From: [Chlorobium] sp. 445
GTDB lineage: Bacteria > Bacteroidota > Chlorobiia > Chlorobiales > Thermochlorobacteraceae
DNA length: 32,539 nt
NCBI GenBank assembly: GCA_002763895.1
Contig: NSLH01000028.1
Location: 1 to 32,539, forward strand
Direction: 5' to 3'
The notes under the pieces are model-generated. The model was not told the DNA's origin. It was given only the letters and a program-made list of their open reading frames with translations, and did no database searches. The translations under genes and the position numbers were made by a program. This document shows positions 14,931 to 32,493 of the stretch, in pieces; position 1 is the first letter of the stretch; each line of letters opens with the position of its first letter.

Positions 14931-15834
14931 CTACAGCGAAGCAATGACTTCGTCTATGGTAGGAATACGGGTTTTGATAACAGAGCGCAGTTTGTGATTA
15001 TCTAAGCTGCAATCACGCGGGCGTGGCGGCGTTGAAACAACGCTATCCAGCGGCGCAGCGCGATAGGAAGATTCAGGCACGCCGAAATGCTCAAAAATTT
15101 TCTTCCCAATTTCATAACGCGAAAGACGCTCGCTGCCCACGGCATGAAATATGCCCCTTGCCTCTCTAGCGGCATCAAGTGCAAATTCCAAGATAATGTG
15201 TGCAAGCGTCTCTACTGAAATCGGTGAGCGATATTCATCTGTGAAAAGTGTGGGAACACGCGACTGTGCCACCTCAAGCATTAAACGCTCATTAAGGCTA
15301 CGGGTACCGCGTGGTGAGTATCCAAGCATAATCGTCGTGCGAAGAATGATATAGTCTTCGAGCGTTTTTAGTGATGTAATCTTCGCTAATCATCTTAGTT
15401 TCACCGTAGAAGCTAAGTGGGTGGCGCAAATCGGTTTCCACATAATGTCCCTGCTTGCCATCAAAGACTAAGTCGGTGGAGATGAAGATAAGTCGTGCAT
15501 GAAAATGTTCGGCAAGATTGGTAAGCGTGCGTGTAACCAGAATGTTTTGCAGCGTAGCTTCATCACGTCGCCATTCGCAAGCAGCAGGTTCCGTCATTGC
15601 CGCAGTGTGAATAATCACATCCGGTCGCCATTGAGAAATCACATTCCAAACCGTGCTTTCAGATGTCAGATCAAATGAGAGCGGCTTGTAGCCATTTGAA
15701 AATGCTGGTCGAACAACAAAGGTTTTGCTGCGTTGCACGGCGCAGACATCCACATTAGGGCGTGTGCCGAGAAAACGCAAGATGTTGCCGCCAAGCAAGC
15801 CGCTGGCGCCTGTCAGAAAAATTTTAACGGGCAT
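14931..15834 (-). pseudogene. RmlD-like sugar-nucleotide reductase, broken by a single-base frameshift
   Basis: Two overlapping frames together encode one extended-SDR protein of the dTDP-4-dehydrorhamnose reductase (RmlD/RfbD) kind. The first (15834 down to 15298) has GASGLLGGNI (9-18) for NAD(P) binding, STDLVFDG and the active-site YGETK. The second (to 14931) continues with LEDYIILRTTIMLGYSPRG and the substrate-domain segment. The frames join if one base is removed from the T5 run at 15365-15369 (A5 on the coding strand); the merged product would be 300 residues, normal for RmlD. Rhamnose or a related sugar pathway is suggested, but no other rml gene is nearby. It may be a true pseudogene, a sequencing error or, less likely, recoding. 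Confidence 0.8.
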
Positions 15835-21474: not shown

Positions 21475-22461
21475 TTACTTTGCGACGTTAGTACGCAAAG
21501 CGTCACTGCGCAAAAAGTTCAAAATTGCCTCACTGACTTCTGCGCTGCGCTCAATTTGAATCATGTGCCCAGTTTGTGGAAGCATCAAAAGTTTTGCGTT
21601 AGGCATCGCTTTGACGCCTTGTTCCATCACTTCACGTGTGCGACCGCCATGCAAAAATGGGTTGGGAATGAGATTGTCGTTTTCACCTGCAAGCACAAGT
21701 GTAGGTGCCTGAATTTTTCCGAGCTTATCCCAGACATATTCATCGAGCATGGCGCCAACGCATTTCCACACGGCATAAGCGAATCGATCGAACTCTTCTG
21801 TGCCAGCTAAACGCACACGCTCTTCAATGAGCCATTCCCATTCATCATTCCATTCATAGAAATTGTTGGTGATGTTAGCGCGCACACGCTCTTGCGGTGT
21901 TTTCTTGACAAAGTCAGGAGTGGTAGCGTTGCGTAGCCAGTCGCCTTCGCCTTGTTTGAAAGCCTCGAACCCAGCAGGTGAGAGCAAAACCAATTTCTCT
22001 ACGGATTCAGGAAAGTGCAGGGCGGCAGTCATAGCAATTTGTCCACCCATAGAGTGCCCAACCCAAGTTGCTTTCGTGATGCCAAGTTCGCTCAGCAGCG
22101 CGCGAACGGTCTCAGCATAAAATTTCAAGGTGTAGGGCGCTGAATAAGGCTTTGATGATTTGCCATATCCAATTAAATCAACGGCAATAACGCGAACGCC
22201 TTGTGCTTGCAGAGTGGGGATATTGTATCGCCAAAAGCCCATATTGCTAGCAAGCCCGTGAATAAGAACAATCGGCTGACCTGCACCTTTGCTATCATAA
22301 TACGCCATCATGACACCATTGACGGATTTCATCTCGGTGCCGAAAGGATAAGCAATATCCTGAAACTTCATCGGTGGGGCGGCATGGTAGAGTTTAGAAT
22401 TGCCGCATCCTGAGAGTGCGATGAGGCAGACAAGCAAGAAAGAGCGTTTTACGTTCGTCAT
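21475..22461 (-). CDS. alpha/beta-fold hydrolase lipoprotein
   Basis: The 328-residue protein opens with a lipoprotein signal (MTNVKRSFLLVCLIALSGC), with Cys19 as the lipidated residue. An alpha/beta hydrolase follows with oxyanion HGLASNMGFW (68-77), nucleophile GHSMGG with Ser137, and likely Asp262 in LAGENDNLIP and His299 in PQTGHMIQIE. Such enzymes are esterases, lipases or C-C bond hydrolases; here it is membrane anchored in the periplasm or outer membrane. It starts 21 bases after the stop of the beta-barrel gene on the same strand, so it is probably the third gene of an envelope operon. Substrate unknown. Confidence 0.92.
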   Translation of the reverse strand: MTNVKRSFLLVCLIALSGCGNSKLYHAAPPMKFQDIAYPFGTEMKSVNGVMMAYYDSKGAGQPIVLIHGLASNMGFWRYNIPTLQAQGVRVIAVDLIGYGKSSKPYSAPYTLKFYAETVRALLSELGITKATWVGHSMGGQIAMTAALHFPESVEKLVLLSPAGFEAFKQGEGDWLRNATTPDFVKKTPQERVRANITNNFYEWNDEWEWLIEERVRLAGTEEFDRFAYAVWKCVGAMLDEYVWDKLGKIQAPTLVLAGENDNLIPNPFLHGGRTREVMEQGVKAMPNAKLLMLPQTGHMIQIERSAEVSEAILNFLRSDALRTNVAK

Positions 22462-22482: not shown

Positions 22483-24057
22483 TTAAAACATTAGCCAACT
22501 AAGTGTACCAAAAACAACCCAAGGGTTTTGCGGTCGCGTGGTAAGTGCGTTTGGACGTGTCAGTGGGCTGTCGTAGAAATCACCGTTGAACATGTAAGCC
22601 ACACTGAGCCCTAAATCGAGAAAGAGTGCGAGTGTGTATTTGAGTTCGGCGTTGAGTTCGGCTCCGATGAAGCGACCGACATCGCTGGGCGTCTGATTGG
22701 CAAGCGCAGCTGCAGCACCAACTTTTATTAACACTTTATTAGGTACAAGATTGTTGAAGTAGTTAAAGAAAACAGCTGTGGTGCCAAAGCCCATGTTAGA
22801 AATATCGTGAACAGCAGAGTAGTAGCGGTTTACGACTTGTGCATCGGGGAAGAGCAGAAATGCGCGGTGTGAGCTAAAAATACCAACAGGTGAGCCCCAA
22901 GTGTTACCTGTTACAACACCGGTGTATTGACCATCGCTCACATTGTTGGCATCACCAGAAGTGTAGAGCGCTTCGAAGGAAATACGGTCGTTGTTGGTTT
23001 GACCGTATTTGTAGTTCAGTGAAAGATGAGCTGTAAAGCCAAAAATACCGATGTTGCCTGTGCTCTCGCCCTGTGGCGTGAAAGTATTGAGATTGCCGAA
23101 GTTGAACACAGTGAGTGCGCTTGCCCAGAGCCGTCCGCCGATAAAGTCGCGATTGTAGGCAAAGTTAGCGCCTGTCCAGAGCACATCGCCCTTGTAGCGA
23201 TTTTGTCCCAACCGAAACCGTGCGCCGCCGTTATACTCGACTAACAGCGAGTTAAAGCCTTGACCGAGAATTGAGACTCCGCCTTCACCTTGAGCTCTGT
23301 CGTAGAGATACCAGATGCTGCCGCCAAGTTCCCACAACCCAGAGAGGCGGGTTTCGGCATCTGCCATCAACAAGACGACATCATCATCGATTTGAATAAA
23401 ATTTTCATAGAGCTGAAAATAGGCGAGGCGACCTATAGTGACAGGCGTAAGATTGAAGTAGGTGCTCATGCCGACGCCTTGTGTGCCCCAGAACATCAAG
23501 CGGTTAGCGCTGGTCTGATGGGTTTGCAGCGTATTGACATTGGGGTCGCGCGGGTTATCAAAAATGCGCTGAATGCCAATAACCACATTCCATGCAGGAT
23601 TGATTTTGAGTTCAAGGTTTGCCAGCAAAGTTTGAATGTTCACAGTCCCTGCGTTGATTGCGCCGCCGACATTATTACCGACGCCGTAGTTGACATCGCC
23701 CCAAGTAACATCGACTTTGAAGAGCGTGCGAAAAATTGCGATGCCATCTAAAATCGCAGGTCGATAGACGAAGAGCGGCACAAAGCGTCCTTCACCATAA
23801 AAAGCAGTTTGGGGCACAGTAGAGGTGCTGTTCGGTCCGAAGAGCCGACCAATAATTTGCCCACGCAGAAATTCATTTTCAGGCGCAATGTTGCTGGCCG
23901 TAAGGCGCGTAAAAAAGAATCCAATGAATTGCAACTCAGGCGGCGGCTTTTCAGGCGTGCCCATACGACGTTCATCATCGACAGGGTAGTTCGGCAACTG
24001 TGCCCACAGAGAAGTGGCATAGAAAAGGATAGCGACAAAGCATAAAGCAATTTTCAT
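22483..24057 (-). CDS. outer-membrane beta-barrel (porin-like) protein
   Basis: I place the start at the ATG at 24057 (524 residues). It has the ribosome-binding site GGGGAG (24064-24069) and gives the signal peptide MKIALCFVAILFYATSLWAQ. The frame is open to 24150, but that would add 31 non-signal residues. The mature part has many amphipathic beta-strands with aromatic girdle residues (TVFNFGNLNTF, AHLSLNYKYG, DRISFEALYTSGD) and ends WVVFGTLSWLMF, with a terminal Phe as in outer-membrane barrels. It could be a 16- to 18-strand porin or export channel; I recognise no specific family. It lies between a lipoprotein and a lipoprotein hydrolase on the same strand. Confidence 0.82.
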   Translation of the reverse strand: MKIALCFVAILFYATSLWAQLPNYPVDDERRMGTPEKPPPELQFIGFFFTRLTASNIAPENEFLRGQIIGRLFGPNSTSTVPQTAFYGEGRFVPLFVYRPAILDGIAIFRTLFKVDVTWGDVNYGVGNNVGGAINAGTVNIQTLLANLELKINPAWNVVIGIQRIFDNPRDPNVNTLQTHQTSANRLMFWGTQGVGMSTYFNLTPVTIGRLAYFQLYENFIQIDDDVVLLMADAETRLSGLWELGGSIWYLYDRAQGEGGVSILGQGFNSLLVEYNGGARFRLGQNRYKGDVLWTGANFAYNRDFIGGRLWASALTVFNFGNLNTFTPQGESTGNIGIFGFTAHLSLNYKYGQTNNDRISFEALYTSGDANNVSDGQYTGVVTGNTWGSPVGIFSSHRAFLLFPDAQVVNRYYSAVHDISNMGFGTTAVFFNYFNNLVPNKVLIKVGAAAALANQTPSDVGRFIGAELNAELKYTLALFLDLGLSVAYMFNGDFYDSPLTRPNALTTRPQNPWVVFGTLSWLMF

Positions 24058-24161: not shown

Positions 24162-24674
24162 TTATTGACGCACGTAGCGCTGAACATTAGCTTGCCCAAA
24201 TGCACCGCCCGATGTACTTCCGAAGCCAGCGGTGGCAGTAGGCGGCGTAACACCTTGGAGAGGAGGCTCTGTCTGCGCAATTTCATATCGCATCGTGTTG
24301 CCGCTGACTTCATAAATCCCAACTGCCGTAATAGCTGTAGGCGTACTTTGATTGACCCTAATGTTTCGGATGTTTGCATTTGCACCCGTGGCCCCGCCAG
24401 CTGAAGTCGTGTAAGTCCCGCGTAAAGTGCCTTCAACGCCAGCTGAATCGCGCTGTACAACCACGTATGAGCCATCTCTGTTAAACGTAGCTTGAATGCG
24501 GCGAATCCGAAAGGGTGGAGCAAAGAGAATCGGTGCGACATTTGTGCCTTCCGATACCCATGTGCCAACAATCGGATCTTGGGTGCTCCCAGAATCTGAT
24601 GAAGTCGTAGAGCCTTGGCATGCAGCCATGGTCAAAGCAGCACAGAGCAAGAGCAGAAAACTGATATTTTTCAT
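24162..24674 (-). CDS. small lipoprotein, lipocalin-like
   Basis: The 170-residue product has a lipoprotein signal (MKNISFLLLLCAALTMAAC) with Cys19. A Ser/Thr-rich linker follows, and then a DPIVGTWVSEG segment (33-43), the common opening strand of lipocalin-like beta barrels. Later strands include ATFNRDGSYVVVQRD and EGTLRGTYTTS. The C-terminus is Gly/Ala/Thr-rich. An AGGAG ribosome-binding site lies at 24679-24683. It is the first gene of a likely minus-strand set with the porin-like protein and the hydrolase. Function is unknown; lipocalin-like folds often bind small hydrophobic ligands. Confidence 0.78.
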   Translation of the reverse strand: MKNISFLLLLCAALTMAACQGSTTSSDSGSTQDPIVGTWVSEGTNVAPILFAPPFRIRRIQATFNRDGSYVVVQRDSAGVEGTLRGTYTTSAGGATGANANIRNIRVNQSTPTAITAVGIYEVSGNTMRYEIAQTEPPLQGVTPPTATAGFGSTSGGAFGQANVQRYVRQ

Positions 24675-24760: not shown

Positions 24761-26264
24761 CTACTCTGCTTGAAGAAGCGCTTTGCGATTGATTTTGCCA
24801 GCAGCGTTCTTTGGCAGTGCATCCAGAAAGACGACATACTTTGGTATTTTATACTTTGCCAGATTTGCTTGACAAAATGCTTGCACATCGCGCTCGGAGA
24901 GCACAACACCTTCTTTCAAAACCACGAATGCCTTGCCAACTTCGCCCCACTTTTCATCAGGTACAGGCACAACGGCGGCTTCAGCAATACATGGGTGCGA
25001 ATGCAACACGCGCTCGACTTCAGCAGGATAGACATTTTCTCCACCAGAGATGTACATGTTCTTTTTGCGATCGACCACATAGTAAAATCCTTCTTCATCT
25101 TCTCGCGCTAAATCGCCTGAATAAAGCCAGCCATCTTTGATAGCCTTTGCCGTTTCTTTAGGGTTATTCCAGTATCCTTTTGTAACGACATCGCCTTTGA
25201 AGATGAGTTCGCCGACTTGCCCGCGCTGAACATCATTGCCCTGATCATCGACAAGACGCACATTCAGATAAAAAATTTGGTACACCAATCGAGCCAATTT
25301 TGCGCACGGCATCGCTGTGATGCAGTGAAAAAAGATTAGGTCCAGCTTCTGTCATGCCAAACCCTTGACGAATCGGCACGCCACGATTTTGCCAAAGTTC
25401 AATCACAGACAGCGGCAAGGCTTCGCCACCAACTAGAAAAAAGCGTATGCGGCTCAGATTGACGGTGTGAAAACTTGGTGCCGCCGCAAGCAGTTTGAGT
25501 ATCGTCGGCACAGCCATAAACATCGTGGCTTGCTCCTGCTCGAGAAGCTGCAGTGTGGTCTCTGCATCAAATTTTTTCATGAGGCAAGAATAGGCACCGT
25601 GATGCAGAAAAGGTGTGGAAAGCACATTGAGTCCGCCCGTATGAAAAAGTGGCATGGCGCATATTGTCCTATCTTCAGTTGAAAGATCTAGGCGCATCAT
25701 CGTATTGACACTGTTCCAAAAGAGCATCCGATGAGAATACAGCACACCTTTGGGCAAGCCGGTGGTGCCGCTTGTGTAAAGAATGAACACAGCATCATCT
25801 TCGCTGAGCTTTGCAAGCGACATGAAAGACTCTGCAGAATCTCGATACGCATAACCTTCATCTTGCAAGTTCTGCAATGACCATTTGTGAGGAATGGTGT
25901 CAGCAATTGGACATTGCGAGAGCGTAGAGAGATACTTGTCTTCGGTGATGAGAAGTTTAGGCATGCAGTCAGCAAGGACTTGATTGATTTCTTTTGCTGC
26001 TAAACGAAAATTGAGCGGGACAATAATTGCGCCAGTTTTTTGTGCGACAAAAAACAAAATGAAGTGTTCCAGACAATTTTCAGCGTAAAGTGCGATGCGA
26101 TCACCATGTGTGAGACCAAACTCTTGCGTGAAGAGCCGCGAGAGGCGGTTTGAAATGTGATCAAGCTGGGTGTAAGTTAAAGTTCGTTCTGTCTCAAACT
26201 CTTTGAGTGCGATTTTCTGAGGCGTGTATAGACAAAGTTTTTCTAGCCAGTTGAAGATCATCAT
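24761..26264 (-). pseudogene. long-chain acyl-CoA synthetase (AMP-forming), split by a single-base frameshift
   Basis: Two minus-strand frames encode one adenylate-forming ligase. The upstream part carries ILYTSGTTGLPKGVLYSH (161-178) for ATP binding, MPLFHTGG and QGFGMTEAGP (300-309). The downstream part has GWLYSGDLAREDEEGFYYV, DRKKNMYISGGENVYP and PKNAAGKINRKAL with the catalytic Lys. The frames meet at A6 (25270-25275) beside TTT (25276-25278). Removing one base gives GSIGVP followed by FYLNVRLVD and a protein of 500 residues, a normal length. It would activate fatty acids to acyl-CoA. It starts three bases after the MFS gene stop, as the last gene of a four-gene operon. It may be a pseudogene or a sequence error. 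Confidence 0.85.
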
Positions 26265-26267
26265 CGC

Positions 26268-27533
26268 TTAATCCAAGTTAAGAGTGTTCATTTGTCGATT
26301 CCCAAGAGCTAAGACCACAGCAGCAAGCACGCAAGCAACGGGACAAATGATAAGCGAAAGTCGCATTGCTTCAGGGTTTGCACTGACATTCCACTGATCA
26401 TTGAGGTAGCCAATCACAAGGGGAGCGATACCATAGCCAGCAACATTGACAAGAAAGAAATAAATACCTACAGCAAGGCCGCGCATGGTGGGTGCGGCAA
26501 TATCGTTGAGGTCTGCAAACGAGGGACCAAGCCATGAGAGACTAAAACCAATCAAGAAAAAGTTGAGTGCAAGCAAAAGCACAAGATTTTCACCAAGGAG
26601 CATCAGCGACCAGCAGAGCGCACTCGCAAAAGCAGAAAGGCTTGCCAATTTCATGCGACCGCCTACTTCTTTCTGACGAAATTTATCGGCAAGATAGCCA
26701 CCACCAATAATCCCAATGAACCCACCTGTAATCATAGCAATGCCAAACCAGCTGCCGATTTCAACCAAGCTTAATTTGTGCACGCGCACAAAAAACACGG
26801 TAAGCCAAGCGCCAACACTTGCTGACGCAACATTGAAAAGTGCATAACCACTATGATGAAACCATATCTTCGCCGTTTTGTAGAGTGCGCGCCAATCTGA
26901 GACAGTCTCTTGCCTTCGCACTTCGCTGTGTCCGCGTTTGGGCTCAATAAGTGCTGCAACAAGCAAAGCAATCAGCACACCGGGAAAACCCAAGAGGTAA
27001 AACGCATATCGCCAGCCGATGGCTTCGGCAATCACGCTACCAAGCAGGAAGGCAAGTCCACTGCCCAGCGCAATTGCCGATGAATAAATGCCTTGAACGG
27101 TCGCGCGCCGTTCTCGTGGAAAGTAATCACTCAGCAGAGAAAGTGCGGCAGGACCAAGTGTGGCTTCGCCAATGCCAACGCCAATGCGGCAAAGAAAAAT
27201 TGTCCAGAAATCAACAGCAAAGCCTGTGAGCCCTGAAAAAACGCTCCACGATGCAAGTCCAATGGCAATCAGCGTTTTGCGTGACATGCGATCAGCAAGA
27301 CGACCAAAAGGGATGCCTAAGAGAGTGTAGAAGATGATAAACGAGGTGGAGCTCAGCAGCGCAAGTTGCGTATCGCTGAACTGCAGCTCGCTCTTAATTG
27401 GCGTAAAGAGAATGTAGATAAGCATGCGGTCTAAGAAGTTGAGCAAATAGACCAGTGTCAGCAAGCCAAGTGCATACCATGCATATCTTTCAGAGAAAGT
27501 CTGTGGTTTGATTTCAGCTGCAGGTGCGTGCAT
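26268..27533 (-). CDS. Spinster-type MFS transporter
   Basis: I start at the ATG at 27533 (421 residues), which has AAGGAG at 27541-27546. The open frame to 27614 would add 27 residues overlapping the upstream gene's end. Twelve membrane helices are visible. Family hallmarks are YLLNFLDRMLIYILF in helix 1, LGIPFGRLADRMSRKTLI after helix 2, CRIGVGIGEATLGPAALSLL and SDYFPRERRATVQGIYSSA, as in Spinster (Spns) proteins. Animal members export lysophospholipids and sphingosine phosphate; bacterial members are varied. Its place between a FabH-like enzyme and an acyl-CoA ligase suggests export or uptake of a lipid or acyl product (inference). Confidence 0.9.
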   Translation of the reverse strand: MHAPAAEIKPQTFSERYAWYALGLLTLVYLLNFLDRMLIYILFTPIKSELQFSDTQLALLSSTSFIIFYTLLGIPFGRLADRMSRKTLIAIGLASWSVFSGLTGFAVDFWTIFLCRIGVGIGEATLGPAALSLLSDYFPRERRATVQGIYSSAIALGSGLAFLLGSVIAEAIGWRYAFYLLGFPGVLIALLVAALIEPKRGHSEVRRQETVSDWRALYKTAKIWFHHSGYALFNVASASVGAWLTVFFVRVHKLSLVEIGSWFGIAMITGGFIGIIGGGYLADKFRQKEVGGRMKLASLSAFASALCWSLMLLGENLVLLLALNFFLIGFSLSWLGPSFADLNDIAAPTMRGLAVGIYFFLVNVAGYGIAPLVIGYLNDQWNVSANPEAMRLSLIICPVACVLAAVVLALGNRQMNTLNLD

Positions 27534-27564
27534 CGTATCTCTCCTTGTTGAAGTGAAATCTGAC

Positions 27565-28554
27565 TCAAAACTTAAATGCAGCGCTAGCAAATGCAAGTCC
27601 GCCGCCTGAACCAATGAACATAATGAGGTCGCCGCGCTTGACCTTGCCTTTTTCTAAGGCATCGCAGAACGCCATAGGAATGCAAGCAGAGCCAGTGTAG
27701 CCATATCTGTCCATGATTGTGTGGGCGCGCTCGCGCGGTACATTCAAATTATCCAGAGTTTGCCAAATGCTATTGATGTTGATTTGTGTGAAAAAGTATT
27801 GCGCAAAATCAGTTGGCTGCAAGTTGAGTCGCGCCGCAAGTGAGCGAGCCATCTTCGTCCAAACTTCTGCGTTAAGTTCTTTCGGAAATTTTCTCACGAA
27901 TTTGAGCAGATGATCTTTGTTAGAAAGCGCTCGGTCTGAAATGGGCTCGTGCGTACCGCCAGCATAAATCCCCATCCAGTCGTGGTATTGCCCTTCGGTG
28001 AGCAGTTCGCTTGCAAGAAAGCCGCGCGTAGAATTTTTCTCGGCTGTAAGAATTGCAGCGCCTGCACCATCTGCAAAAAGCGTAACGGTTTTTTTATCCT
28101 TCATATCCAAATACTTGCTCATAGCGTAGGCGCCGACAACAAGAATGTGCTGATAGCGTTCGTCAGAACGAATGTATTTGGAAGCAACATCGAGCGCAGT
28201 AACAAAACCTGCGCATGCGGTGTTAATGTCGAAAGTGCCCGCGCGTTTTGCGCCTAAACGGTGTTGAACCACTGAAGCCGTCGAAGGCGAGATATATTCG
28301 GGTGTGTCGGTAGCTACGATAATTAGATCAAGCTCTGAAGGCTGAAGGCTGGCATTGGCAAGGGCAGCGCGTGCAGCGTGTTCGACAAGATCAGCTGTGG
28401 ATTCATCGTCTTTACACCATCGACGCTCGCGAATGGTTAGATTCTCTACAAGCCAAGTATCTACATCTTCGCCCAAGAGTTCATTGAAGTAAGCATTTGC
28501 AATGATACGTTCAGGCGCGTACATCCCCGTTGCAGCAATAATAGCGTTTTGCAT
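27565..28554 (-). CDS. ketoacyl-ACP synthase III (FabH)-like protein with altered active site
   Basis: This 329-residue thiolase-fold protein has the KAS III layout. The nucleophile is Cys114 in FDINTACAGFVTALD, and GDL-SGGG-type ends appear as RGDLIMFIGSGGGLAFA. The His and Asn of the usual Cys-His-Asn triad are replaced. Thr256 stands in FFTQININSIW where FabH has HQAN, and Tyr286 in YGYTGSACIPMA where FabH has GNTSA. The 30-residue spacing between the two sites is kept, so the alignment is firm. It may therefore acylate or condense by a different mechanism rather than decarboxylate malonyl-ACP. A GGGAGA ribosome-binding site lies upstream (about 28564-28569). It follows fabG by 83 bases. 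Confidence 0.88.
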   Translation of the reverse strand: MQNAIIAATGMYAPERIIANAYFNELLGEDVDTWLVENLTIRERRWCKDDESTADLVEHAARAALANASLQPSELDLIIVATDTPEYISPSTASVVQHRLGAKRAGTFDINTACAGFVTALDVASKYIRSDERYQHILVVGAYAMSKYLDMKDKKTVTLFADGAGAAILTAEKNSTRGFLASELLTEGQYHDWMGIYAGGTHEPISDRALSNKDHLLKFVRKFPKELNAEVWTKMARSLAARLNLQPTDFAQYFFTQININSIWQTLDNLNVPRERAHTIMDRYGYTGSACIPMAFCDALEKGKVKRGDLIMFIGSGGGLAFASAAFKF

Positions 28555-28637: not shown

Positions 28638-29381
28638 TTAGGCAACATAGCCGCCATCGACACTCAGCACGGTGCCTGTAATAAACGCTGCCTCATCAGA
28701 TGCTAAAAAAAGGTATGCGCTAGCAACATCTTCAGGCGAGCCAAGCCGTCCAAGCGGCGTGCGTTCTTTAACACTTGTCAAGACTTTTTCAGGTACAGTT
28801 GTAATCATCTCGGTTGCAATGAAGCCGGGCGCAACCGCATTGACCGTGATGCCTTTCTTACCTAATTCTCTTGCCCAAACTTTGGTCATACCAATTAGAC
28901 CTGCTTTAGCGGCGACATAGTTTGTTTGACCAAAGTTGCCATAAAGTCCAACAACAGAAGCGGTATTGATAATGCGACCGTATTGCTTTTCTGCCATGTA
29001 CGGCGCGACAGCTTTTGCACAATTGAAGACACCAGTGAGATTGACATCAATCACCTGTTGCCACTGTTGTGCGGTCATCTTAAGCAGTGTGGCGTCGCGC
29101 GTAATACCCGCATTGTTGATAAGAACATCAAGGTGAGAGAATTTTTCGTAGGCGCGCTTAGCCGCAGCTTCTACTGAAGCAAGGTCTGCGACATTGACTT
29201 CATCAAAATGCACAGCGAAGCCCTTTGCAGTGAGTTCTTGCAAGAGACTTTCACCTTTTTCACGACTCATATCCCAGATAATCACTGTGGCGCCTTCACA
29301 AGCAAATTTTTCAGTAGTGGCTTTGCCGATGCCTTGTGCACCCCCAGTGATAATTGCGGTTTTACCATCTAAGCGTCCCAT
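28638..29381 (-). CDS. fabG: 3-oxoacyl-ACP reductase type SDR
   Basis: The 247-residue protein is a classical FabG-like SDR that reduces 3-oxoacyl groups with NADPH. All catalytic parts are present: TGGAQGIG (12-19), NNAG (89-92), Asn114, Ser142 in NTASVVG, Tyr155 and Lys159 in YVAAK, and the C-terminal TGTVLSVDGGY. It is the first gene of a four-gene minus-strand operon with the FabH-like protein, Spinster transporter and acyl-CoA ligase, so it may be devoted to that pathway (or to hydroxyacyl-CoA, as in PhaB) rather than be the housekeeping FabG. A promoter candidate lies at 29424-29454. Confidence 0.93.
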   Translation of the reverse strand: MGRLDGKTAIITGGAQGIGKATTEKFACEGATVIIWDMSREKGESLLQELTAKGFAVHFDEVNVADLASVEAAAKRAYEKFSHLDVLINNAGITRDATLLKMTAQQWQQVIDVNLTGVFNCAKAVAPYMAEKQYGRIINTASVVGLYGNFGQTNYVAAKAGLIGMTKVWARELGKKGITVNAVAPGFIATEMITTVPEKVLTSVKERTPLGRLGSPEDVASAYLFLASDEAAFITGTVLSVDGGYVA

Positions 29382-30792: not shown

Positions 30793-32493
30793 CTATCCAT
30801 TCGTGTAAATCGGACCGCCGCCGCCTTCAGGCACTTTCCAAGTAATGGCTTGATATGGGTCGGCAATGTCGCATGTTTTGCAATGCACACAATTTGACGC
30901 ATTGATGTGCAATTTCTTTGTGCCCATGAGGTCATCAGTTGAGACCATTTCGTAGACATTTGCGGGGCAGAAGTGTTGGCATGGATTGCCATACTCGGTG
31001 ATGCATTTTGTGTTGCAAATATCTGCGATCACATCAGGGCGAATGTATAGATGGCACGGTTGGTTTTCTTCGTGTGTCGTTTTGGATTCGTAGACATCGC
31101 TAAGTTTGTCGAAAGTGAGTTTGCCATCGAACTTAAATTCTGCTTTTTCACGCAGGTATTTTTCGCGCCAGATTCTTGAGAAACGTGCCATGTGGGTATG
31201 GTCGGCATCGAGCGGGAGCTTATCTTTAAGAATTTTGCCACCGAGGAGCATTTGCAGTCCAGCGCGTAGCATACCAAAGTAAAGTCCGTAGTTGAAGGCT
31301 TGTCTGAAATTACGAGAGCGATAGAGTTCTTTTTTTGCCCAAGAGGCATGAAATTTTTCCTCGTAGAGTTTGAGTGTGTCGGCAGAAAAATCGTTTTTCT
31401 TTAAGGCTTCAAAGATGGTTTCAGCAGCGAGCATGCCCGACTTCATGCAGAGATGAATGCCTTTAAGACGCATCATATTCAAAAAGCCACCGGATTCGCC
31501 TGTAAGCAAAAGCCCATCGGCATAAAGGCGCGGCATAGAGAAGTAGCCGCCACCTGAAATGGTCTTAGCACCATAGCCGACCATCTTTCCGCCTTCTAAG
31601 AGTGTGCGCACGAACGGATGCGTCTTGAACTTTTGCAAATTGAAATGCGGGTCATTGGTAGGGTCTTCAGCATCAAGGGCAGTAACAAAACCGACGGAGA
31701 GCATGGTCTCGCTCATGGCATAAATCCAGCTACCGCCATAGATATCAGCAGGCAACGGGAAGCCCATCGTATGAATAACGGCACCTTTCTTGATACGACC
31801 AGCAGGAATCTCCCAGATTTCTTTGACGCCTGTTTCGTAGGATTGTGGATTGCGGTCAGTATCAAGATTCAGAATACGGACGATTTGCTTCGTCAGCGAG
31901 CCGCGTGGTCCTTCACCTAAGACCGTAAGTTTAGCGCGAATGTTCATTCCGGGCTCAAAGTTAGGTTTGGGCTGACCTGATTTGTCTAAGCCTTTGTCGT
32001 CGGTGCGAACGCCGATGACTTTACGCCCATCGAGTAACAGTTCTGCGCCAGCAAACCCTGTAAAGATATTGATACCTTGCTCTTCAGCGATTTTTCCAAG
32101 CCAGGCACCAAACTTGTTGAGCGAAATGATATAATTCCCATGATTTTGCATGGGCGGTGGTATCAGTGGAAAACGAAACTTAGATTTTGCGGTAAGAAAA
32201 TAGAGCGACTCCGTTGTAACTTCAGTTTCAATTGGGCAACCGCGCTCTTTGAAGTCAGGCATAAGTTCGCGCAAAGCAATCGGGTCCAAAATCGCGCCCG
32301 AAAGCAGATGATCACCTACACGCTGACCTTTTTCGAGAATAGCAATTTGCGGCTCTAACTTTTGAGCAGACTGCGCATTGTGCGCGTCGATGAGGTTTTG
32401 AAGATGAATTGCTGCGCAAAGATTGGCAGGACCGGCGCCCACGAAGAGAATGTCCATCTCAAGTGTCTCGCGCTGAATGTCTGGCTGTGGCAT
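30793..32493 (-). CDS. electron-transfer flavoprotein:quinone oxidoreductase
   Basis: This 566-residue membrane-associated enzyme takes electrons from reduced ETF, loaded by acyl-CoA and other dehydrogenases, and passes them to quinone. FAD-binding VGAGPANLCAAIHL lies at about 18-31, GEGPRGSLTKQI at 193-204, and GGSWIYAMS and GESGGFLNMMRLKGIH at 334-347 mark the flavoprotein core. The C-terminal 4Fe-4S domain has CPANVYE with Cys509 and NCVHCKTCDIADPYQAITW with Cys535, 538 and 541, ending PEGGGGPIY. This is the fused mitochondrial-type form, not the split FixC/FixX. No etfAB genes are in the window. A small membrane protein gene follows 18 bases later. It points to a quinone-linked, respiratory fatty-acid or amino-acid oxidiser. 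Confidence 0.96.
   Translation of the reverse strand: MPQPDIQRETLEMDILFVGAGPANLCAAIHLQNLIDAHNAQSAQKLEPQIAILEKGQRVGDHLLSGAILDPIALRELMPDFKERGCPIETEVTTESLYFLTAKSKFRFPLIPPPMQNHGNYIISLNKFGAWLGKIAEEQGINIFTGFAGAELLLDGRKVIGVRTDDKGLDKSGQPKPNFEPGMNIRAKLTVLGEGPRGSLTKQIVRILNLDTDRNPQSYETGVKEIWEIPAGRIKKGAVIHTMGFPLPADIYGGSWIYAMSETMLSVGFVTALDAEDPTNDPHFNLQKFKTHPFVRTLLEGGKMVGYGAKTISGGGYFSMPRLYADGLLLTGESGGFLNMMRLKGIHLCMKSGMLAAETIFEALKKNDFSADTLKLYEEKFHASWAKKELYRSRNFRQAFNYGLYFGMLRAGLQMLLGGKILKDKLPLDADHTHMARFSRIWREKYLREKAEFKFDGKLTFDKLSDVYESKTTHEENQPCHLYIRPDVIADICNTKCITEYGNPCQHFCPANVYEMVSTDDLMGTKKLHINASNCVHCKTCDIADPYQAITWKVPEGGGGPIYTNG

Follow-up and report, generated by a model that had tools for sequence, protein, structure and literature searches.

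Gene content of the locus and family assignment

The window, i.e., the whole stretch of DNA analysed (contig NSLH01000028.1, positions 1 – 32,539, of [Chlorobium] sp. 445), stems from a 2.8-Mb MAG and harbours an operon that encodes, in this order, an SDR, a KAS III-like protein, an MFS transporter, an acyl-CoA ligase, a small lipoprotein, an outer-membrane beta-barrel, and an alpha/beta hydrolase (Table 1). Over the stretch of the KAS III-like gene (27565 – 28554), several stops interrupt plus-strand frame 1. Among named relatives, the closest is Candidatus Thermochlorobacter aerophilum, whose KAS III-like protein is 88% identical to that of the window. The ligase gene is a single unbroken ORF in loci L034 and L035; the frame break in the window lies at a run of T near position 25280 and may reflect an assembly or read error, or a recent loss. 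Within the operon of Candidatus T. aerophilum, the MFS gene is split into two ORFs (L034, 9011 – 10287). Elsewhere in the window, two overlapping ORFs on the minus strand (14931 – 15834) together resemble, as judged by eye, one frame-broken RmlD-like sugar-nucleotide reductase, and an electron-transfer flavoprotein:ubiquinone oxidoreductase is encoded two genes upstream of the SDR (30793 – 32493, minus strand), which fits a beta-oxidation-type metabolism.

Table 1. Features of the operon in the window and active-site codons of its KAS III-like protein
Feature	Position	Strand	Basis or remark
KAS III-like protein, Thr/Tyr clade, 329 aa	27565..28554	minus	ATG start; Pfam/NCBIfam, FabH-chain alignment, model
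Cys114 codon, putative nucleophile, equivalent to E. coli FabH Cys112	28213..28215	minus	Cys in 111/111 clade rows and 45/45 His/Asn rows
Thr256 codon, at FabH His244	27787..27789	minus	Thr in 110, Ser in 1 of 111 clade rows
Tyr286 codon, at FabH Asn274	27697..27699	minus	Tyr in 111/111 clade rows
Ser316 codon, at FabH Phe304	27607..27609	minus	Ser in 111/111 clade rows; Phe in 39/45 His/Asn rows
Asp83 codon, at the Glu position of HMG-CoA synthase-family proteins	28306..28308	minus	Asp in 111/111 clade rows; no acid in the 45 His/Asn rows
Partner SDR, FabG-like, Asp at the end of beta-strand 2 (NAD type)	28638..29381	minus	SDR of its cluster in 71/82 loci
MFS transporter	26268..27614	minus	Real start probably a later ATG near 27533
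Acyl-CoA (AMP-forming) ligase	24761..26264	minus	Two overlapping frames, 25245-26264 and 24761-25312
Small lipoprotein, 170 aa, no Pfam family	24162..24674	minus	Lipoprotein signal by eye
Outer-membrane beta-barrel like AlgE, MOMP, and OprD/Occ porins, no Pfam family	22483..24057	minus	Structure model
Alpha/beta hydrolase with lipoprotein-type signal peptide	21475..22461	minus	Signal by eye

The KAS III-like protein matched the Pfam families ACP_syn_III and ACP_syn_III_C and passed the cut-off of the broad NCBIfam subfamily model PRK09352 (259 versus 249 bits), whereas it missed the cut-off of the fabH model TIGR00747 (229 versus 292 bits). Its scores with the HMG-CoA synthase models ranged from 31 to 68 bits, as against cut-offs of 244 to 360 bits (31 versus 360 bits for TIGR01835). 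An AlphaFold2 model of the window's protein, built with 66 sequences of the Thr/Tyr clade described below (the sequence sets A1 and A2 contained 66 and 29 sequences, respectively), had a mean pLDDT of 96 and displayed the FabH fold. Among the matches listed, its best structural match was 4ryb, a FabH (Z 47.5, 318 residues aligned, 1.8 Å), and comparison with E. coli FabH (6x7r) gave a Z of 47.2 and an rmsd of 1.4 Å (318 residues aligned, 29% identity); every chain among the matches listed (two lists of 50) was at most 33% identical to the model. A canonical FabH, possessing His and Asn, is encoded on another contig of the window's genome. In addition, a 94-aa open frame of this genome (G000:C31:3638-3913) matches the KAS III C-terminal part weakly (35 bits), as the third such match there. 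The designation of the window's protein as a beta-ketoacyl-ACP synthase, which originates from the broad NCBIfam model, is probably a misnomer.

Active-site residues of the Thr/Tyr proteins

Alignment with E. coli K-12 FabH by means of MAFFT paired Cys114 with Cys112, Thr256 with His244, and Tyr286 with Asn274. The preliminary description of this DNA had named Cys114, Thr256 (in a TQIN motif), and Tyr286 (in a GYTGS motif), and the window's protein contains these residues exactly as given there. The accompanying argument, namely that His and Asn had been substituted and not misaligned, holds as well. Indeed, the two sites are 30 residues apart in both the window's protein and E. coli FabH, and HMMER placed T256 on the His and Y286 on the Asn, ungapped in between, in the five solved FabH chains shown; the same pairing was returned in all three printed alignments of the clade profile.

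Altogether, 160 rows of KAS III-like proteins were aligned, with second-tier matches shorter than 250 aa, L003, and the duplicates L002 and L004 being excluded. The Cys was present in all of them. Thr or Ser occurred together with Tyr in 111 rows (110 Thr and one Ser), including the window's protein, and His together with Asn in 45 rows, including E. coli FabH; four rows had neither pair, namely L144 (Asn and Asn), L155 (Pro and Ala), and two operon paralogues (Leu and His). The 111 Thr/Tyr rows are partly redundant, since they collapse into 103 distinct cores and, at 90% identity, into 86 groups. All 111 carry Thr or Ser followed by Gln in the region of FabH His244, where the window's protein reads TQIN. 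Among other positions of E. coli FabH, Phe87 is replaced by Ser in 110 clade rows and by Thr in one, Arg36 by Asn in 98, Arg249 by Asn in 99, Lys214 by Glu in 93, and Phe213 by Lys in 81 and by Pro in 17 of the 111 rows, with Asn247 retained in 110. Five residues (Asp83, Tyr143, Tyr197, Asn228, and Trp232) are invariant throughout the clade rows and rare or absent at these positions in the His/Asn rows. The preliminary description had allowed for a conserved His elsewhere in the pocket; by sequence none was found, the best column being H215 (94 of the 111 rows) and no column containing His in 109 of the 111 rows. A decayed paralogue was ruled out, because the residues are strictly conserved within the clade.

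Phe304 of FabH plays a role in malonyl decarboxylation. His244 and Asn274 are described, in excerpts of PMC10054515, as stabilisers of the malonyl-derived enolate. The loss of these three residues disfavours malonyl decarboxylation, and decarboxylative condensation has very probably been lost. A KAS III that decarboxylates in the usual way despite its Thr and Tyr would agree with the PRK09352 score and with the FabH fold, but its probability is very small, given that the TIGR00747 cut-off was missed, that the His, the Asn, and Phe304 are all replaced in 111 of 111 rows, and that the genome already possesses a canonical FabH. Four of the other FabH residues concerned, F213, K214, R249, and R36, have been reported to bind ACP or pantetheine (excerpts of PMC8036411 and PMC4606726). 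Their replacement would suit the use of CoA instead of ACP, but a KAS III of Acinetobacter reportedly still binds ACP although R36 and R249 are missing (PMC8036411, same excerpts). A role in scaffolding or regulation, with a CoA ester bound and little or no catalysis, would have a parallel in PqsB, a KAS-like subunit reported to be devoid of catalytic residues (PMC4807248, in part), yet this is most improbable for the Thr/Tyr proteins, as the invariance of Cys114, Asp83, and Tyr286 in 111 rows is hard to explain by binding alone.

Asp83 was compared with the Glu of L175 and L176, two members of the HMG-CoA synthase family (both over the cut-off of Pfam PF01154). It comes after a conserved Thr that closes a strand, a setting shared by the Glu of these two proteins, and it fell on Glu E82 of L176 in eight of eight MAFFT runs, with which a pairwise alignment with L176 concurs. 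When L175 was the sole HMG-CoA synthase-family row, one of three MAFFT modes paired Asp83 with the Glu and the other two paired it with an Asp close by, and the pairwise local alignment with L175 placed it off the Glu. The Glu aligned with Asp83 is presumably the general base of HMG-CoA synthase.

Phylogeny, distribution, and gene neighbourhoods

Both groups of rows had been defined by the two residue positions, and their separation in a tree constitutes an independent test. In a tree of 62 rows, the Thr/Tyr rows were located on one side of a branch (97/99); in a tree of 52 rows, from which the catalytic and neighbouring columns had been removed, and which omitted L153 and L155, both on long branches, as well as the two operon paralogues, they formed one clade (100/99). 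In these trees of sampled rows, Thr and Tyr, which 111 of the 160 aligned rows possess, are common to a clade. The distinct subfamily that the preliminary description had considered is borne out by this single clade, the invariant residues, and a recurring operon, so that the Thr/Tyr proteins almost certainly represent one. The two operon paralogues adjoin the clade on a long branch in the 62-row tree (99/88). These are second, very divergent KAS III-like proteins of 340 aa in Melioribacteraceae operons (L094, 9646 – 10668; L108, 5851 – 6873), which keep the Cys and have Leu and His at the two sites; the paralogue was also found in L132, apparently the same genome as L094. A further unusual KAS III-like protein, L155, occurs in a genome of the window's order (G048), has Pro and Ala at the His/Asn positions, and sits on a very long branch.

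The 111 rows originate from the Chlorobiota, Ignavibacteriota, Bacteroidota, Calditrichota, Balneolota, and Krumholzibacteriota, and from one Chloroflexota plasmid. Within the window's family, the gene is present in seven of nine genomes, with no clade-level match in G006 (95% complete) and G008 (81% complete); across the remaining 52 genomes of the order, no match exceeded 167.3 bits, which is the level of FabH. Among the 148 genomes of the phylum, the window's genome included, 31 had a match of at least 350 bits, separated by a clear gap from the next match at 183 bits; residues were read in those of the 31 other than G114, G148, and G108. The search of genome contigs returned 172 loci, of which the best 80 showed 60 – 88% identity and included records of Ignavibacteria, Saprospiria, Flavobacteriia, Cytophagia, Calditrichota, KSB1, Balneolia, Kapaibacterium, and Krumholzibacteriia. 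Matches at E 1e-65 or better occurred in eight of 58 genomes of the phylum of the Krumholzibacteriia record and in six of 40 genomes of that of the Calditrichota record; Cys, Asp, Thr, and Tyr were present in all ten matches read of these 14, two of which (L163 and L179) come from genomes already in the set. Plasmids yielded 377 records with a match. Two of these were read, the Chloroflexota one having the clade residues (approximately 43% identity to the window's protein) and the Streptomyces one His and Asn. One scan of viral contigs gave four pattern matches and no relative. In an open-access full-text literature search, no description of the clade or the operon was found in titles or abstracts.

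Neighbouring genes were clustered over 82 loci (80 named loci, being the best 80 of 172, plus L010 and the window) by single linkage, which can merge paralogues; the LytTR and kinase clusters were named by eye. The counts are lower bounds, because of contig ends and of long antisense ORFs that displace real genes. An SDR was found in at least 71 of the 82 loci, an AMP-forming acyl-CoA ligase in at least 70, a sodium:solute symporter in at least 59, and an alpha/beta hydrolase in at least 50. Less frequent were a small regulator, weakly CudC/HTH-like (at least 34), a TonB receptor (at least 31), the lipoprotein (at least 30), the barrel (at least 29), an MFS carrier (at least 11), and an AtoB-type thiolase (at least 9). 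The regulator of the CudC/HTH-like cluster is absent from the operon in the window. In 44 of the 81 loci where the KAS III-like gene was called, the SDR gene lies immediately before it in the same orientation, with a median gap of 11 bases. At the 14 loci whose protein shows 50 – 54% identity to that of the window (L117 – L129 and L136), ligase, SDR, and symporter were counted at least 14, 10, and 10 times, respectively. The lipoprotein keeps a GFGS motif in 16 of 16 aligned sequences. A 464-aa protein without Pfam or NCBIfam match (L093, 425 – 1816, and 23 other loci) often lies beside the SDR in operons of Saprospiria and Flavobacteriia.

Another type of thiolase is present in the operons L095, L107, and L137. 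On the Chloroflexota plasmid, which possesses a thiolase that is 37% identical to that of L095, the SDR and KAS III-like genes are located beside a gene for a protein like butyryl-CoA:acetate CoA-transferase (310 bits, under the cut-off of 675), and further genes code for a 102-aa protein, a Zn-ribbon OB-fold protein, an alpha/beta hydrolase, and an ABC system with substrate-binding protein. Acyl-CoA dehydrogenases and enoyl hydratases were not found among the 14 largest neighbour clusters. The neighbourhoods also bear on an acyltransferase like CerJ or ChlB3, in which Cys114 would move an acyl group from CoA to an alcohol, an amine, or a thiol. The Cys is retained, the decarboxylation residues are gone, and the KAS III fold performs acyl transfer in CerJ and ChlB3 (PMC9573744, in excerpts); such a function nevertheless appears quite unlikely, as the catalytic His required by these two enzymes, according to the same excerpts, was not found in the clade, and as neither an acceptor-making nor a sugar gene occurred among the 14 largest neighbour clusters.

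Possible pathway and comparison with known systems

Ser-Tyr-Lys and an Asp at the end of beta-2 are present in each of the 73 partner SDRs, 72 of which belong to the cluster and one to the plasmid; the position of the Asp is Ala in E. coli FabG and Lys in the FabG of the window's genome; Arg129 of FabG is mostly lost. Asp at the end of SDR beta-2 marks NAD(H) use, and NAD-linked oxidation is therefore indicated. The model of the barrel (pLDDT 75) was closest to AlgE (Z 23.8, 351 residues aligned, 3.6 Å), in a tie with MOMP (23.2) and the OprD/Occ channels (OpdL 23.1, 325 residues aligned, 3.5 Å), the sugar porin maltoporin scoring lower (20.1). The modelled barrel is likely a substrate channel, and specificity for carboxylates is at most suggested, the tie of the Occ channels with MOMP and with AlgE, an exporter, counting against it. 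Porin, carrier, ligase, and NAD-type SDR are together read as a system for organic acid uptake and oxidation, and a catabolic role of the operon seems probable. A canonical thiolase occurs in all nine genomes of the window's family, with one elsewhere in the window's genome, and in three of the 49 genomes of family f4 of the same order; within the order, the gene is confined to the family whose nine genomes all have the thiolase. The thiolase occurs without the gene in two of these nine genomes and in the single f3 genome (G010). This co-occurrence fits a heterotrophic setting, as one taxonomic split and not as a strict association.

A tentative explanation is that the window's protein descends from FabH, depends on CoA, and catalyses a Claisen-type reaction without decarboxylation, in an operon for organic acid uptake and degradation; its most likely substrate would be the 3-ketoacyl-CoA that the SDR produces, which it would cleave, and thiolysis in particular is put forward with equal reserve. 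The preliminary description had named an acyltransferase or a non-decarboxylating condensing enzyme as possibilities. A non-decarboxylating Claisen-type reaction is favoured by the operon and the invariant Asp83; it is more likely degradative, which the preliminary description had not proposed. We infer CoA in place of ACP, the direction, the substrate class, and the residue roles. Firstly, the exported alpha/beta hydrolase would release a (3-hydroxy)acid, to be imported via the barrel or a TonB receptor and an SSS or MFS carrier. Secondly, the ligase, or the CoA-transferase in the case of the Chloroflexota plasmid, would form the CoA ester. Thirdly, the NAD-type SDR would oxidise the 3-hydroxyacyl-CoA, and the Thr/Tyr protein would cleave the resulting 3-ketoacyl-CoA with CoA. 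As none of the 14 largest neighbour clusters is an acyl-CoA dehydrogenase or an enoyl hydratase, the substrate would enter as a 3-hydroxyacid. For the cleavage itself, of which we infer every chemical step, Cys114 would attack the keto carbon of the 3-ketoacyl-CoA, acetyl-CoA would depart as an enolate and take a proton from Tyr286 and/or Asp83, and the acyl group on Cys114 would be handed to CoA. In PqsBC, the H269A variant is reported to undergo acyl loading without the His (PMC4807248, in part), which makes acylation of Cys114 plausible; this loading, the lost decarboxylation residues, and the catalytic Tyr of Ltp2 and Sal together underlie the proposed mechanism with Cys114, Tyr286, and Asp83.

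Since a true thiolase is present in some of the operons and one occurs elsewhere in the window's genome, a second one would be redundant there, and another step may apply. Profile alignment with the operon thiolases covered the N-terminal half only (probabilities of 85.8% and 6.0%), with Tyr286 outside. A doubtful extension of the proposal is an independent second origin of thiolase, whereby FabH would have given rise to a degradative, CoA-dependent, His-free Cys-Asp-Tyr enzyme cleaving 3-ketoacyl-CoA; this enzyme would be central to an operon, widespread but so far overlooked, that serves the use of 3-hydroxyacids (or related esters) in Bacteroidota and neighbouring phyla. Alternatively, the reaction may run forward as a non-decarboxylating condensation of the HMG-CoA synthase or OleA type, in which Asp83 would deprotonate an acyl group that attacks a second acyl-CoA and the SDR would reduce the product. 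The location of Asp83 at the Glu position of HMG-CoA synthase-family proteins would suit this, as would the set of KAS-like protein, hydrolase, AMP-ligase, and SDR, which recalls OleABCD; such a condensation seems unlikely, however, in view of the NAD-type SDR, the porin, the symporter, and the lipoprotein signal of the hydrolase, the scores of 31 – 68 bits with HMG-CoA synthase models (cut-offs of 244 – 360), and the lack of a conserved His.

The TQIN region is taken here to correspond to the YDHF/YDCY region of Ltp2 and Sal, and Tyr286 presumably corresponds to Tyr344 of Ltp2. A retro-aldolase similar to Ltp2 and Sal, in which Tyr286 and either Asp83 or Cys114 would act as acid and base, would have precedents in the Tyr/Tyr and Tyr/Cys aldolases reported to have arisen in the thiolase fold (PMC12329534, in excerpts). 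The chance that it applies is slight, as these excerpts place the catalytic Tyr of Ltp2 and Sal in YDHF/YDCY, where the window's protein has TQIN, and as a ketone made by the SDR would be superfluous for an aldolase.

The Chloroflexota plasmid member is annotated as ketoacyl-ACP synthase III. Together with the PRK09352 cut-off passed by the window's protein, this makes it likely that many genomes carry a name implying fatty acid initiation, which the active site and the operon contradict. If the Thr/Tyr protein is a His-free Claisen enzyme, as in the preferred reading of 3-ketoacyl-CoA cleavage, it would widen the known range of the thiolase fold, provide a natural test of the residues needed for decarboxylation, and point to a carbon source of many uncultured Bacteroidota and Ignavibacteria.

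With E. coli FabH, the window's protein shares the fold, the Cys nucleophile, and the equivalents of Gln245 and Asn247; it differs in that His244, Asn274, and Phe304 have given way to Thr, Tyr, and Ser in its clade, which also has Asp83, in that the ACP-binding residues are mostly changed, and in that the partner SDR is of the NAD type. The catalytic triad of HMG-CoA synthase consists of Cys, His, and Glu; both have a Cys and, right behind the conserved Thr of the preceding strand, an acidic residue, whereas the clade lacks a conserved His and the window's protein scores low with the family models. Thiolases are characterised by two catalytic Cys residues and the His of a GHPxG motif. OleA has a Cys-His-Asn active site, of which His and Asn are missing in the Thr/Tyr clade; 3row, 6b2s, 4kti, and other chains, which we take to be OleA chains, match the window's protein at 61 – 66 bits. 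OleABCD comprises a similar list of four enzyme types, but here the SDR is FabG-like, the ligase is FadD/MenE-like, the hydrolase has a signal peptide, and transporters are present. PqsBC is also KAS III-like, with a Cys reported to be acylated from CoA; unlike the protein with Thr256, PqsC keeps the His in a Cys-His dyad, and PqsBC is a biosynthetic heterodimer (PMC4807248, in part). Similarly, CerJ and ChlB3 combine the KAS III fold with an altered triad, although theirs is Cys-His-Asp (PMC9573744, in excerpts) and the clade has no conserved His. Finally, the steroid aldolases Ltp2 and Sal possess another motif and a DUF35 partner, but their Tyr-based catalysis on the thiolase fold constitutes a precedent (PMC12329534, in excerpts).
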